The notes beneath the pieces are model-generated. The model was not told the DNA's origin and did not search any database. It saw only the letters and a program-made list of their open reading frames with translations. This document shows, piece by piece, positions 26,442-45,500 of a stretch of DNA of 64,000 nucleotides. Every line of letters begins with the position of its first letter. Within the stretch, counting starts at the first letter, position 1. The position numbers and the translations under genes were made by a program. The stretch comes from Pseudobdellovibrionaceae bacterium (GTDB lineage: Bacteria > Bdellovibrionota > Bdellovibrionia > Bdellovibrionales > Bdellovibrionaceae). The stretch is taken from NCBI GenBank assembly GCA_019637875.1, contig JAHBUW010000011.1, forward strand, positions 62,001 through 126,000, written 5' to 3'.

Positions 26442-27446
26442 ATGGCGAAATTGCGTGTTGGTATCAATGGTTTTGGCCGTATCGGTCGCGTTCTTTTCCG
26501 CGCGGGCTTTGAAGAGCTCGATATCGTCGGCATCAACTCGCTCGACTCGATCGACGGCGTCGCGCACCTGCTGAAATACGACAGCGTTCACGGCACCTTC
26601 AAAGCCGACGTCAGCCATGACGAAAAGAATCTGATCGTGAACGGGAAGAAAATCCCCGTTTCGTCGACGAAAAATCCCGCCGATATTCCTTGGAAAGCTT
26701 GGGGCGTGGACGTGGTGCTCGAGTGCACCGGCGCGTTCAAGAAGAAGGAAGACTTCATGCTGCACGTGAAGGCCGGCGCGAAACGCGTTCTGGTCTCGGC
26801 GCCGGCGGAAGGCGCGGATCGCACCGTCGTTTACGGCGTGAATCATGAAACCTACAATGCGGAAACCGACTTCGTCGTTTCGAACGCGTCGTGCACCACG
26901 AACTGTTTGGCGCCGATGGCGAAAGTGCTGCACGAAACTTTCGGCGTCGTGAACGGCACGATGTTGACGGTCCACTCGTACACTTCGGATCAACGCCTGG
27001 TCGATGCGCCCCACAAGGATCTGCGTCGCTCGCGCTCGGCGGCTTTGTCGATGATTCCCACGACGACCGGTGCGGCGAAAGCCGTCGGTCAAGTCTTGCC
27101 GGCGCTCAAGGGCAAGGTCGACGGCCTGTCGATCCGCGTCCCCACGCCCAACGTGTCGCTCGTCGATTTCACGTTCAACTCGGAAAAAGACATGACGAAG
27201 GATTCGATCAACGCGGCTTTGACGGCGGCGTCGAAAGGCGCGCTGAAAGGCGTGCTCGCGGTCGAAGAGAAAGAGCTCGTCAGCTGCGATTTCAACGGCA
27301 ACGCGCATAGCTCGATCGTCGATCTGTCGATCACCATGACGGCGGGACCGCGCACGGCGAAGGTCATGTCGTGGTACGACAACGAGGCGGGCTTCTCGAA
27401 CCGCATGGTGGATTTCGTCAAGTACATGGCTGCGAAGGGATTGTAG
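26442..27446 (+). CDS. gap: Glyceraldehyde-3-phosphate dehydrogenase
   Basis: This 334-residue enzyme has the NAD-binding INGFGRIGR motif and the catalytic Cys151 in SNASCTTNCLAP. It oxidises glyceraldehyde 3-phosphate to 1,3-bisphosphoglycerate. The ATG at 26442 is preceded by AAGGAG. It is followed, after a structured 269-nt element, by pgk and then tpiA, giving a lower-glycolysis cluster. The stop codon is only two bases before the element begins. Confidence 0.96.
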   Translation: MAKLRVGINGFGRIGRVLFRAGFEELDIVGINSLDSIDGVAHLLKYDSVHGTFKADVSHDEKNLIVNGKKIPVSSTKNPADIPWKAWGVDVVLECTGAFKKKEDFMLHVKAGAKRVLVSAPAEGADRTVVYGVNHETYNAETDFVVSNASCTTNCLAPMAKVLHETFGVVNGTMLTVHSYTSDQRLVDAPHKDLRRSRSAALSMIPTTTGAAKAVGQVLPALKGKVDGLSIRVPTPNVSLVDFTFNSEKDMTKDSINAALTAASKGALKGVLAVEEKELVSCDFNGNAHSSIVDLSITMTAGPRTAKVMSWYDNEAGFSNRMVDFVKYMAAKGL

Positions 27447-27448
27447 CG

Positions 27449-27717
27449 AGGTCCTAACCCTTCACTAGTTGAAGGTTGAATCGAATGGAAAAATGTCAGA
27501 TGCAAGAAGCGACGACAAACCATAGCCGGGTCTATGGTGCGGAGGAGCGACGCAGCCAGATGGCTTTTTTCCATTCGACCCGCAGGGCAGATCTAAAAAT
27601 GCCTTGCTCTTCGTTACATCGAGCTCGAATTGGCAAGAGCCAGTCCTTCGCTCGATGCGCCTCGATCAAGGCATTTTTAGATCTGTTCAATCTTCAACTA
27701 GTGAAGGGTTAGGACCT
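27449..27717. repeat. Symmetric multi-branched inverted-repeat element between gap and pgk
   Basis: The element fills the intergenic gap to within two bases on each side. Outer arms 27449-27480 and 27686-27717 are complementary over 32 bases with one G-U-type mismatch. Immediately inside, 27481-27578 closes through 13 bp (27481-27493 with 27566-27578) and 27588-27685 closes through 18 bp (27588-27605 with 27668-27685); both arms are exactly 98 nt. A 9-nt mini-hairpin (CCCGCAGGG) separates them. Each arm holds inner hairpins: 27519-27525 with 27532-27538 in the first, 27617-27624 with 27650-27657 in the second. GC is about 49 percent, well below nearby genes. The pgk ribosome-binding site (AGGA, 27711-27714) lies in the outer right arm. 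It may be a regulatory RNA or a mobile element. Confidence 0.85.
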
Positions 27718-27719
27718 AC

Positions 27720-28943
27720 ATGGCGGGCTTGAAAGGGATTCAGCTGATCAGTGATTTCGATCTTTCCGGAAAAACCGTATTCCTGCGGTTGGACCTGAAC
27801 GTGCCGCTCGACAACGGCAAGATCACCGACGAGACGCGGATCACCGCGAGTCTGCCGACCATCAAGTACGCGCTGGAAAAAGGCGCGAAGCTCGTCGTGG
27901 CGTCGCACTTGGGGCGTCCCAAGTCGGCGGGCGACAAAAAGTACTCCATGGAGCCCGTGGCGGATCGTTTGGGCGAACTGCTGGGCGTGGAAGTCATCTT
28001 GATCGAAGAGCCCGGTTCGGACGCCGTGAAGCACAACCTCATGGGGCTGAAGAGCAATCAGCTGATCCTGCTTGAGAATCTGCGCTACAACGAAGGCGAA
28101 ACCGAAAACTCGGAGTCCTTCGCGCAAGAGCTCGCCGCGGGAATCCAAATCTACATCAACGACGCCTTCGGGGCGAGCCACCGCGCGCACGCCTCCATCG
28201 AAGCGCTGCCGCGTTTGATCCCGAAAAAAGGGATCGGTTTTCTGATCGAGAAAGAAGTGAAGATCCTCGATAAGCTGATCGAGACGCCCGAGAAGCCTTA
28301 CCTCGCGATCCTCGGCGGCTCCAAGGTCAGCGATAAAATGGGCGTCATCGAAAATCTGATCGATAAGGTCGATGCGTTCATCATCGGCGGCGCGATGGCC
28401 TACACTTTCTTGAAGGCGCAGGGGCTTCCGGTCGGAAAATCCCTCGTGGAAACCGATAAGCTCAGCTACGCGCGCGAAATGCTTGCGCGGGTCGAAGCTC
28501 GTCGCAAGACGATCCTTCTGCCCGTGGATCATGTCTGCGTTCCCAGTTTCGACTCCAATGAGTCCCTCACGACCGCGGATGTCGCGATCCCCGAGGACAT
28601 GATGGCGCTCGACATCGGACCGAAGTCGATTCGCAATTTCGAAGCGGCGATCGCTTCGGCGAAGACCGTTTTCTGGAACGGTCCCATGGGCGTTTTCGAG
28701 CGTCCGGCCTTCCATCGCGGAACTTTCGCAATTGCGGAGGCTTTAGCTAAAAATTCTGGATTCCGGATCGTGGGTGGTGGGGACTCGGCGGCCGCGGCGG
28801 AAGCCTCGGGATTTGCTGATAAAATGACCCATATCTCAACGGGTGGTGGCGCGTCTTTGGAGTATCTCCAAGGGGATAAGCTGCCTGGACTCGAAGTCCT
28901 TCGTCAGAAAAAACAATCCGAGAAGGACCCGGTTCGGCTATAA
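27720..28943 (+). CDS. pgk: Phosphoglycerate kinase
   Basis: This 407-residue enzyme has the N-terminal RLDLNVPLDNGKITDETRI substrate motif, LASHLGRPKS-like strand (VASHLGRPKSA), NDAFGASHRAHAS and the C-terminal FWNGPMGVFE with GGGDSAAAAE. It makes ATP from 1,3-bisphosphoglycerate. The ATG at 27720 is two bases after the structured element, and its ribosome-binding site is inside that element's outer stem, so translation may depend on how the RNA folds. Confidence 0.96.
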   Translation: MAGLKGIQLISDFDLSGKTVFLRLDLNVPLDNGKITDETRITASLPTIKYALEKGAKLVVASHLGRPKSAGDKKYSMEPVADRLGELLGVEVILIEEPGSDAVKHNLMGLKSNQLILLENLRYNEGETENSESFAQELAAGIQIYINDAFGASHRAHASIEALPRLIPKKGIGFLIEKEVKILDKLIETPEKPYLAILGGSKVSDKMGVIENLIDKVDAFIIGGAMAYTFLKAQGLPVGKSLVETDKLSYAREMLARVEARRKTILLPVDHVCVPSFDSNESLTTADVAIPEDMMALDIGPKSIRNFEAAIASAKTVFWNGPMGVFERPAFHRGTFAIAEALAKNSGFRIVGGGDSAAAAEASGFADKMTHISTGGGASLEYLQGDKLPGLEVLRQKKQSEKDPVRL

Positions 28944-41596: not shown

Positions 41597-42274
41597 ATGA
41601 TGGACATGGGAAAAGTAGTCACAATTGATGGTCCCGCCGCGAGCGGAAAAACTTCGGTCAGCCGTGAGCTCGCAAAGCGTCTGGGCTGGAAGTGGGTGTC
41701 CACGGGCGCGTTTTATCGCGGGCTCGGTTACGCGGCCTTGAAGTTGAAACTGGATCTGAACGACGAGGACGCGCTCGCCGCGCTCGCGCAACGTTCGGAC
41801 GTCTGGGCCGTCGAGATGCGTGACGAAGAAACCAAAGTTCTTTTCCAAGGTCGCGACGTCACCAATGACGTGCAGGCCGAGGACATCGGGCAGGTCGCCT
41901 CGAAGATCAGTCACTTCCCCAAAGTCCGCGCCAGCCTGCTCGCGTCCCAGCGCGACTGCCAAGCGACGACGGAGGGTTTGGTCGCCGAAGGACGCGATTG
42001 CGGAACCATCGTGTTCCCGGGTGCCGAAGCGAAAATCTATCTGACCGCGAAGCAAGAAAACCGCGCCGAGCGCCGTGCGAAAGAGCAGGGCCTCTCGACG
42101 GAAGAAACCATCGAAGCCCAAAAGCAGCGCGACCTTCAAGACTCCACCCGTAAGGCGGCACCGCTCGCGGTGGCCGAAGAGGCTTTGGTCGTCGACACGA
42201 CGGACCTGAACTTCGAAGAGGTCGTCAAAGCGGTGGAAGCCTTCGCCCGTCCCCGCATCGTCGGCCACGCGTAG
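41597..42274 (+). CDS. cmk: Cytidylate kinase
   Basis: This 225-residue kinase has the P-loop TIDGPAASGKTSVSREL, STGAFYRGLGY, EGRDCGTIVFPGA and the C-terminal helix that binds CMP. It makes CDP and dCDP. ATG 41597 is followed nine bases later by ATG 41606 (MGKVVTID), which is also a good start. A terminator lies 85 bp after the stop, inside the second structured element. Confidence 0.92.
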   Translation: MMDMGKVVTIDGPAASGKTSVSRELAKRLGWKWVSTGAFYRGLGYAALKLKLDLNDEDALAALAQRSDVWAVEMRDEETKVLFQGRDVTNDVQAEDIGQVASKISHFPKVRASLLASQRDCQATTEGLVAEGRDCGTIVFPGAEAKIYLTAKQENRAERRAKEQGLSTEETIEAQKQRDLQDSTRKAAPLAVAEEALVVDTTDLNFEEVVKAVEAFARPRIVGHA

Positions 42275-42509
42275 GTAGCCGGGGGCGGAGACGCTGACTT
42301 GTTGAAACGCGATGCGTTTCCAAGAGGGGTCATAGTCGCACTTTGAATATTTCTTTTTAAAACCCGAGAGAACCTCGGGTTTTTTTGCGTCCGCCACTTC
42401 CGAATTGGAAGTCCGAGGCGGACACTTCTTGAGTCGATTTGGCCGATCGCCGCCCCCATTTTCGGGACGGCGCATTTCAACAAGTCAGCGGCTCGGCGCC
42501 CCCGGCGAC
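42275..42509. repeat. Second inverted-repeat element with nested hairpins after cmk
   Basis: The space between the cmk stop and the convergent lipoprotein stop is almost entirely filled. Arms 42275-42311 and 42470-42509 are inverted repeats of about 37 bases with one 2-nt gap and a few mismatches. Inside are a terminator hairpin (42359-42383), a bulged hairpin 42389-42423, and a stem 42448-42452 with 42468-42472. The left arm holds ACTTGTTGAA (42297-42306), close to ACTAGTTGAA in the gap-pgk element. It may be an RNA element shared with that locus or a bidirectional terminator region. Confidence 0.7.
42359..42386 (+). terminator. Rho-independent terminator after cmk
   Basis: A 10-bp stem (AAAACCCGAG at 42359-42368 with CTCGGGTTTT at 42374-42383) with a 5-nt loop is followed by a run of T. 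It would end the ilvA-hisC-cmk transcript. Confidence 0.88.
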
Positions 42510-42511
42510 CT

Positions 42512-45500
42512 TCAGAGCCCCAGGGCCGCGCGAAGGTCTTGGTCCAGCTTCTTGAGGCGGTCTTTGTTGGTCGTCGCGCGAATGGATTTGAGCGTCTCGG
42601 CGATTTTTTTGGTGGTCGCTGTGAGGTCCGCGCCTTCGCTCCAGAGGACCGCGTCGGTGGTCAGCACCGTCGCCTCGAAGGCCGCGCGCATCGACTTGAT
42701 GCGGTCCGTACCCGACGGAGGATTCGCCAGCTCGCGTTTCAGCATCGCCAGGAACTCCACGACGTCTGCGGAAGCCAGGCGTGTGTTCGCGGCGTTCAGC
42801 TTTTCTTCCAGCAGATCGTAAGAGTAGCCCTGAATCATCGCGACCGCTTGCAGGTTCGAGACGCTGTCGGCCTTGCGCGTGAAACGCTCTTCGAAGCCCG
42901 CGCCCAAAAGTCCGCGCGCGCCTTCGAAAGCGCCGAGCAAGGTCAAGTCGATCGCCGCCGTGGGCACGCGTCCCGCCAGGTTCATGCGGAGCAGATCGTG
43001 CGCGACCTGCTGGCAAGAGTCGAGCGGCGCGCAGCCGACCGCGATCACGGCCAGGTTGTTTGCGATCTGCGCGTTGAAGGCGTCGAACGCATCCGCGCCT
43101 TTCAATGCGAGCGTCAGGCGTTTCGCCGACAGATAGGGACGCAGCGAGGGGAGCTCCGCGTACGCAGCGACGATCTGCGCGTTCAACGCTTTCAGATCTT
43201 CCGCGCGGGTGAGCCAGAGCTTCGCGCCGGCGACACCGGGGTCACGTTCCAACCCACGGATGAAGTTCGCGCCGTTTTGAACCTCTTGCGCGGTCCACAG
43301 AATCAAGTCGGTCAAGAGCGGCAGATCGGCGGTGCCGCCGATGACGCCGTTCGCGACCGCGAACTGGGCGAACTGGTTCAGCTCCTGAAGGCCCAGGCCG
43401 GTTTTGGAGGTGAGCTCCGCGCGGCGCGAGTTCAAGTAGCGAACCACGTCCATGGCGAGCGCTTGCGAAGCCTGTTGCAGACGGCTTTCGCGGGTCGAGC
43501 TCACGTTCCATTCGCGGTGGATCTGCGACAGTTCGCGATAATTCGAAACCTGCGCAGCCGGGGCTTGCAGGATCGTCTCGACGAAGCGGAAGTCCTCGGT
43601 CGAAAGATCGCTTTCGATCAACCGGCGCCAGTCCGCGACGACTTCCGCCGCCACGGGATCCAAACGCAGATCGCCACCCGATAGCGGCTTCAGCAGCGCG
43701 ATCCAGCGGTTCACGCGGTTCAGGTGCTCGGCGCGGATCTGGCTGCGCGAAGCGCGGTCCGCGAAAGTCGCGAAGCTGCGCGAAACGCCGACGTTATTGG
43801 CTTGGGTGCGCAGCTCTTGGGAAAGTCCGTTGAGCAGGGCGTCGACTTCGGCCGCGCGACGGCGGACCTGCTCGACGCGTTCGGCTTCGCGGCGCTCGGC
43901 GAGCACGCGCTGGACGACGGCTTGCGGATTGTCCATGGCGCGGATTTTCTCTTCCGCGCGCAGACCACGGACGCCATCGATGAAGGTCGCGATTTCATTT
44001 TCGCCCATGTTCGCCCACAAGCTGGGTTGATAGCGTTGCATGATGCCGTCCATCGCCAGGCCCGCTTTGCTGAGGCGGAGCGCGACGAAGATCATTTTAT
44101 CCAGGGCGGTCGGTACGAAACGGCGCGCGCTGAAAACGGAGTCGTAGAGTTGGGTTTTCGTGACCAGCTCAAACGCGAAAGGCGTGAGCTCCGGCGCTTT
44201 GGCGATCTGCGCGAACAGATAGGCGTTGGCTTTCGCGGTTTCGGTGTAGCGCCAGTCCTTCTGGGCGCCCCACCACGCGGGCAGCGGTTCGAAACCGAAA
44301 CGCGCCAGCGACGAACGCGTGATTTCGTTCACGAAGGTCTCGCTCACGCGGGGAGCGAAGGCCTGACGATCTTGGTAGATCGCGAACATCTGGCCGATGA
44401 AGTCGGGACTGAAGACGGCAAGGCCCGTGTCGATTTCGCTCGACTGGCAGGCCGCGAAAAGCTGCGCGCTTTGCAGCTCGCTGCCCGCGTCGAAGGGGCG
44501 CGTGCGCAGGACTTCGTTCAGACACTGAGTCTGGCGGGCGGGCGTCAGACCTTCCAGACGTCCACCGGCGCTGGTCAGCGCGCCGCTGATGCGGGTGCCG
44601 GTGCGGTCGGTGATCGTGAAGTCGAAGGTGTAGGCGACGAGCACGCGACGACCCGAGTTCACGTAGAAGAGGTAGTCAAAGGCCGGACCACGGAATTGAT
44701 AGGCGAAGCGGAGCACGTTCGCGCGGAAGGGATCCGCCGACACCGGCAGGATCATGCGCATGCCGTCGGCCACGACGGGGCTTTGCAGCTCACCGCCCTC
44801 GAGCCACAGGCCCGCGCCGGTCAACGCCGGATCTTGGAACTTCACGGTCGAACTTGCGACGGGCAGGTTTTCGTAGGCTTGCGGGTGGAAGAAGTTCAGG
44901 AACTGGCGCAGATTTTCGTTCGAGGGCATGCGGCGGGGCGAGTATTCGCCACGGAAGAACGCGAGCGGGACGCGGGTATCGACCTTCATGCCGAGACCTT
45001 CACGGAACGGGAAGAGGTCACGCTCCATCGACAGGGAAACGCGGTGGGGGACGATGCCGTCCTCGAGCTTCGTGCCGACCTTCGATTGGATGACGGGGTT
45101 CAGGTTCGAATGCAGCGACACCGGCAGGTCTTTGAAGAGCGCGGTTTGGTAAGCGACCTTGCCGTCGACCACCAAAAAGCAGTTCTGCGCGGCTTGGCGC
45201 AGTTCGATGCGCGAGCGTCCACCGCGCAGGTTGGTCTCGTTGAACTCGGCGATCAGGCTGGAGTCTTCCAAACGTTTGTTCTCGATGACGCCGTTCTTTT
45301 GCAGATCGACCAGGAAGTAGAAGTCCGCCGTGTTCACCACCATCGTGCCGTTCGTGCGATCGAACAGCGCGCGGGCATCCCACTGATACGTCACGGCCGA
45401 ATCGAAGCTGCGACGGCTGAGCGGATCGTCTCCGCCGAAAGAAACGGCGCTACAGTTTTTGAGCGGCATCGCTTTCCAGTTGCGGACACGCTGGGCGAAG

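Follow-up and report, generated by a model that had tools for sequence, protein, structure and literature searches.

A double-hairpin repeat between gap and pgk of a Pseudobdellovibrionaceae bacterium is probably a miniature mobile element related to IS5-type insertion sequences

Several families of dispersed palindromic repeats described in bacteria resemble the element studied here in part of their features. The Correia elements of Neisseria, also known as NEMIS or CREE, are likewise miniature and have paired ends that form a long hairpin in the mRNA (PMC2649163). Binding or cleavage by RNase III at Correia elements alters the expression of neighbouring genes, and differences among strains show their mobility (PMC2649163). 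These elements measure from 71-73 to 157 bp and carry promoter and IHF sites (PMC2649163), whereas the element described here is a three-way junction of 269 nt in which no promoter was found. IS5-family MITEs and the Chunjie element of Geobacter uraniireducens (Chen et al. 2008, as cited in the review PMC10969869) are also short, non-coding, dispersed and mostly intergenic, with terminal inverted repeats; to judge by the title of Chen et al., Chunjie is located within an operon and leaves it undisturbed. That review describes neither a double inverted core of hairpins with tandem G.A mismatches nor a placement flush with stop and start codons, both of which are found here. The SPRITE repeats of Streptococcus pneumoniae (PMC3049150) are terminator-like and enriched near gene 3' ends and between convergent genes, in which they resemble the single hairpins of a related genus (g7, see below), but they have an 18-bp stem, a U tract and AAAA/TTTT ends, and they lack the double hairpin and IS5-type ends. 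The Ype, Efa and Bor stem-loop repeats (Petrillo et al., PMC1590033) are similar in being large, in preferring the 3' ends of coding sequences and in being plausibly co-transcribed with them; their species and sequences differ, and Bdellovibrio is absent from the text of PMC1590033. Finally, the REP sequences tagged GTAG or CGTC (PMC3733652) are dispersed palindromes, often dimeric, and their CGTC class has no transposase at hand, as is the case here. REP sequences were rejected as an identity for the present elements, since they span 20-40 bp and end in an unpaired tag, whereas the elements studied here measure 97-270 nt and have paired, IS-like ends. The literature on bacterial palindromic repeats that was searched, a partial coverage of the field, contained no description of this repeat family and no mention of Bdellovibrio.

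The element occupies positions 27449-27717 of the window, that is, of the whole stretch of 64,000 nucleotides that was analysed (Table 1). Its length of 269 nt and its layout of 32+98+9+98+32 are exactly those of the preliminary description, which had also correctly recognised the outer inverted repeat of 32 nt, the location of the pgk ribosome-binding site within the outer stem, and the two-base spacers on both sides (CG after the gap stop and AC before the pgk ATG). The low GC content noticed there was borne out as well, with 49.1% for the element vs 59.7% for the window. As for the closing stems of the arms, put at 13 or 18 bp, the value for the left arm stands, and that of the right arm was corrected to 19 pairs in the minimum free energy (MFE) structure. 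The downstream pgk gene is 60-71% identical to pgk genes of Bdellovibrionales.

Table 1. Features of the gap-pgk junction and of the element inserted in it (window positions)
Feature	Position	Strand	Evidence or remark
gap (glyceraldehyde-3-phosphate dehydrogenase)	26442..27446	+	upstream gene; ORF and codon-based gene call
gap stop codon TAG	27444-27446	+	2 nt before the element
Left terminal inverted repeat (5' strand of outer stem)	27449..27480	+	31 of 32 paired
Left arm, closing stem of 13 pairs	27481..27578	+	folds; homologous to free hairpins of relatives
Tandem G.A mismatch part of core	27506..27551	+	three GA/GA 2x2 loops with Watson-Crick pairs between; MFE structure
Central mini-hairpin CCCGCAGGG, 9 nt, at junction	27579..27587	+	fold and alignment
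Right arm (inverted core hairpin), closing stem of 19 pairs	27588..27685	-	opposite-strand self-match
Right terminal inverted repeat (3' strand of outer stem)	27686..27717	+	holds AGGA (27711-27714), an SD-like motif before pgk
pgk (phosphoglycerate kinase)	27720..28943	+	downstream gene; start 2 nt past the element

The predicted RNA fold of the element had an MFE of -147.2 kcal/mol in comparison with -76.9 ± 5.3 for dinucleotide shuffles (z -13.3), and none of 200 shuffles was as good; under DNA parameters the z value was -13.8. Alignment with the other copies and with an IS5-type end placed AGGTCCTAACCC at the end of the left terminal inverted repeat, with the consensus AGRGCCTATCCC. The left arm corresponds to the core hairpin of the family in plus orientation (CAGATGCAAG..GCGACGAC..stem..GGAGGAGCGACGC..CAG), and the two arms are inverted copies of this one conserved core rather than unrelated hairpins.

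Known structured elements were compared with the locus. The poor fit to retrons and attC sites that had been stated at the outset was confirmed by the absence of the defining features of both: the neighbours are gap and pgk, with no adjacent reverse transcriptase, and the hairpin ends read AGGTCC...GGACCT and show neither GTTRRRY nor RYYYAAC boxes. A scan of 27449-27717 for promoters and terminators found neither; no GC-rich hairpin with a free T-tract, as expected of an intrinsic terminator, is present, and the T5-T6 runs lie within stems. Neither the window nor 19 loci of relatives matched an Rfam covariance model at gathering score, save for neighbouring RNase P RNA and tRNA genes, and L001 and L131 matched none even at E<=1.

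A nucleotide search of the genome revealed five further copies with 77-82% identity over the matched stretch. The six close copies are all 268-269 nt long and have identical boundaries and fold, including three pairs of the central mini-hairpin that are invariant; their pairwise identity does not exceed 88%, which indicates that none is a recent donor. A covariance model built from these six copies and used to search the genome and its relatives retrieved in this genome eight full-length copies and three single-arm elements. The eight full copies lie at unrelated loci and contain no transposase ORF. Two of them (L101 and L102) form a diverged subfamily, in which the opposite-orientation core shared by both arms is clearest, and a further locus, L190, is a solo end, the remnant of an element most of which has been deleted. 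Among 31 arms, tandem G.A mismatches (GA/GA) account for 41 of 76 symmetric 2x2 loops. One single-arm relative (L105, G000:C2:23816-23929) lies directly 3' of the lexA stop codon, before an imuA-like gene.

The window contains a second long inverted repeat at 42270-42512 (31 nt, 87%), which surrounds an intrinsic-terminator-like hairpin between cmk and a convergent gene and has a fold z of -8.7. Its ends of about 45 nt recur at about nine other places, in some of them as a near-perfect palindrome (GGTAGCCGGGGGCGCC...GGCGCCCCCGGCTACC), a recurrence that indicates another palindromic repeat family.

BLAST searches with the element gave no match in 59 relatives or in collections of phages and plasmids. 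Scanning viral and GTDB contigs for its pattern likewise gave no hit beyond its own genome, and one free hairpin had no BLAST match among phages and plasmids. Searches by sequence only would thus have yielded an orphan, and the covariance model was needed to find the relatives. This model matched in 26 of the 66 genomes of the family, the own genome included, and in five other families of the same order. A strict core pattern (TGCAAGGCG...CAACGCAGTC) was present in 20 of 369 genomes of the phylum, all 20 of them in this family, up to 33 times in one genome and with no control hits. Three architectures were found: single hairpins, about 97 or 121 nt long, chiefly in genus g7, which is probably Bdellovibrio; one hairpin within a terminal repeat (about 159 nt); and, in the own genome and in G029, the double hairpin, which measures about 270 nt. 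Two g7-type or core hairpins have particular features: one core hairpin (L132, G068:C1:3797688-3797785) adjoins an RNase P RNA gene (Rfam RF00010, 1616-1998, minus strand), and a g7 hairpin (L266, G006:C1:579729-580428) carries, with respect to its G036 ortholog, a 63-nt insert bearing palindromes of its own.

The single hairpins of g7 raise the question of a family of bidirectional terminators, that is, long A-tract/T-tract hairpins located right after stop codons that spread as terminator-bearing repeats. A stop codon meets the right end of 35 of the 47 g7 hairpins, mostly within 0-5 nt, 17 of the 47 lie between convergent genes, their stems read AAAAAGG...CCTTTTT, and several of these sites are occupied in sister species by ordinary intrinsic terminators. 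However, the window element is internal to an operon that leaves no space for a pgk promoter, the scan of the element showed neither terminator nor promoter, and a strong terminator at this position would silence the glycolytic pgk gene. The terminator reading thus fits genus g7 and was rejected for the family as a whole on account of the operon-internal copy of the window; as an explanation of the repeats we regard it as distinctly unlikely.

The ends of the elements provide information on their mobilisation. Genome G029 carries an insertion sequence of the IS5 family (Pfam DUF4096, DDE_Tnp_1) whose terminus is AGGGCGTGTCCTCATTTGACTGG and reads TA|GGGCGTGTCCTCATTTGACTGG. Element ends in G005, G025 and G044 agree with this terminus at 19-21 of 23 positions (16 for one diverged G005 end), the L101 end of the own genome at 15, and the ends of the close copies at 9-14; the window copy agrees at 10 of 23 (shuffle p 0.04), and the full-length element of G029 itself has different ends (7 of 23). 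Termini are conserved between genera, as AGAGCCTATCCYAAAA is found both in the own genome and in G012. Furthermore, the terminal A is preceded by T at 25 of 38 ends (background 0.25, p 1e-7), and TA..TA flanks are present in 9 of 19 elements vs 1.2 expected. The window copy has TA on its right side only. Taken by themselves, this single TA and the end match are weak evidence, and the copy is assigned on the strength of its close siblings and of the other family members. From comparison of the sequences, these data point to a TA-targeting IS5-type transposase as the putative mobilising enzyme. No match to an IS5-type (DUF4096) transposase or a homologous DDE protein was found in the own genome (G000), and the DUF4096 transposase is also absent from the hairpin-rich genus g7. 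This indicates non-autonomous copies, possibly relics, and would call for a transposase that was supplied in trans or has since been lost. A MITE may outlive its partner, and a transposase in the same genome is not strictly required. In another genome, an IS5-type element (L186, G008:C225) has a 76-bp inverted repeat at its ends, an extra passenger-like ORF and its transposase in two separate frames.

Both similar elements and compensatory changes, on which the preliminary description had staked its case, were found. In the alignment of the six copies, 97.9% of the cells were paired vs 87.9% in shuffles, and two-sided changes were observed at 39 of 102 pairs vs 14.7 in shuffles. Two-sided cells numbered 62, vs only 2 one-sided cells of G-U type. 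Selection on RNA only should leave more G-U pairs, and the scarcity of these intermediates fits better with pairing at the DNA level or templated correction between the arms, to which we infer that the covariation of the stems is pointing. One form of such correction is template switching in a DNA hairpin, by which one arm of a quasi-palindrome is rewritten from the other, so that two-sided changes arise as single events and not by selection; this process is compatible with a MITE. It is also consistent with the hairpin pairs within g7 genomes, which are up to 97.5% identical and differ by single compensated pairs. Orthologous hairpins of g7, on the other hand, showed 19 broken and 8 G-U pairs vs 13 two-sided changes, indicating that correction is not immediate, and the mismatched GA core is conserved and has not been turned into perfect pairing. 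Quasi-palindrome correction is therefore put forward tentatively, as a possible but not favoured source of the covariation. Eight of the 11 orthologous g7 hairpins were conserved above their flanks (for instance 99.2% vs 87.3%). The pair L178/L261 was an outlier, with 72% identity between the elements vs 94% in the flanks, as if one of the two elements had been replaced.

The gap-pgk junction was empty in eleven relatives, in which the genes lie -1 to 38 nt apart with no element. Similarly, in g7 the hairpin of one species may be missing at the orthologous site of its sister, pgk-tpiA being among such sites, with a plain junction or an ordinary intrinsic terminator in its place. Gene context, taken from a codon-usage gene caller, located the six close copies at gap|pgk, purB|purC, HIT|rhomboid, a divergent junction before a glycosyltransferase gene, xseB|ispA and carboxylase|enoyl-CoA hydratase. 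In all six the next start codon lies 0-3 nt past the right end (p ~3e-10 even under intergenic-only insertion, with gene density taken from the window), which places the ribosome-binding site inside the stem, and in four of the six a stop codon lies within -2 to +4 nt of the left end. At L097, L102 and the remnant L190, the TAG stop consists of a host T and the first two bases of the element, and at L096 a TAA stop is completed by its first base. The first bases AG of the element thus restore TAG upon insertion at TA, and insertion at the TA of a stop codon keeps the stop, which explains why the element abuts stop codons. At L099 the upstream HIT-family ORF extends 31 nt into the element before its stop, as if the insertion had replaced the original C-terminus of this gene.

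Folding predictions gave a probability of being unpaired of 0.00 for the SD zone of the downstream gene in free RNA, alike in the six copies. With 14 nt of the left strand kept from pairing, as they would be under a ribosome at the upstream stop, this predicted value rose to 0.26-0.67, and removal or cleavage of the left strand was predicted to open the SD zone to a similar extent. As pgk must be made, it is likely that the long duplex is either opened by coupling or cleaved; the model suggests that translation of pgk would require either opening of the stem by the terminating gap ribosome or cleavage, and that the element may shape the expression of gap and pgk. By analogy with the Correia elements, which offer a precedent, RNase III may process the long duplex at gap-pgk. 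These features could also be read as those of a cis-regulatory or mRNA-processing RNA, co-opted or arisen to set the gap/pgk ratio through translational coupling or RNase III cleavage, the structure being kept by selection on RNA. The exact stop-element-start arrangement in four of the six close copies, the start-flush position in all six, the SD predicted to be hidden unless the stem opens, and the higher conservation of most orthologous g7 hairpins relative to their flanks speak for such a role. Against it, the downstream genes (pgk, purC, rhomboid, glycosyltransferase, ispA, enoyl-CoA hydratase) share no common pathway, the near lack of one-sided G-U cells is not what RNA selection should leave, and no Rfam family was matched even at E<=1. 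We consider this origin unlikely.

Altogether, the element is probably a non-autonomous MITE derived from an IS5-type (DUF4096 and DDE) insertion sequence, with an unusual double-hairpin architecture. Of the alternatives raised in the preliminary description, that of a miniature mobile element with terminal repeats has thus gained ground, through the eight full copies and their relatives, the IS5-type ends in the family, the terminal TA and the empty sites in relatives. The other, a regulatory RNA tying pgk translation to folding, may yet hold in so far as the SD of pgk is predicted to be fully paired unless the stem is opened. Against the MITE reading weigh the absence of a DUF4096 transposase from this genome and from g7, the poor end match and one-sided TA of the window copy, the lack of a recent donor among the six copies, and the different ends of the full-length element in G029. 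The outer 32-bp stem would correspond to the terminal inverted repeat and the interior to two inverted cores carried by the family throughout the order. This reading draws on sequence comparison, namely on the repeat family, the compensatory changes, the IS5-like family ends, the TA ends and the empty junctions of relatives.

In the mechanism that we propose, a transposase acting in trans would have inserted the element at a TA of the very tight gap-pgk junction. As the ends read (T)AG..., a TAG stop would be recreated whenever the TA of a stop codon is hit, and the right end would place a weak SD (AGG) immediately ahead of the following start codon; such insertions could thus be tolerated. 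In the polycistronic mRNA the element would fold into a three-way junction that hides the SD of pgk. According to the folding predictions, a gap ribosome at the stop 2 nt before the stem could melt the first 12-14 pairs and thereby free the SD and AUG of pgk; alternatively, RNase III could cut the long duplex and separate the two messages. A more far-reaching version, to which we give little credence, is that of a domesticated bridge from stop to start, in which the outer stem of a MITE-derived three-way junction would juxtapose both codons, the terminating ribosome would open the start in a coupling across 269 nt, and the tandem-G.A core would be bound by a host protein throughout the order.

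The repeat family spans a bacterial order that includes predators, and its insertions in the tight junctions of central-metabolism operons leave these intact. That a stop is restored (TA + G) provides a simple rule for the survival of a 269-nt insertion. Through the conserved tandem-G.A core and the rarity of G-U intermediates, it becomes testable whether such palindromes are maintained at the DNA level, and likewise whether a mobile element can set the stoichiometry of two genes in one operon.
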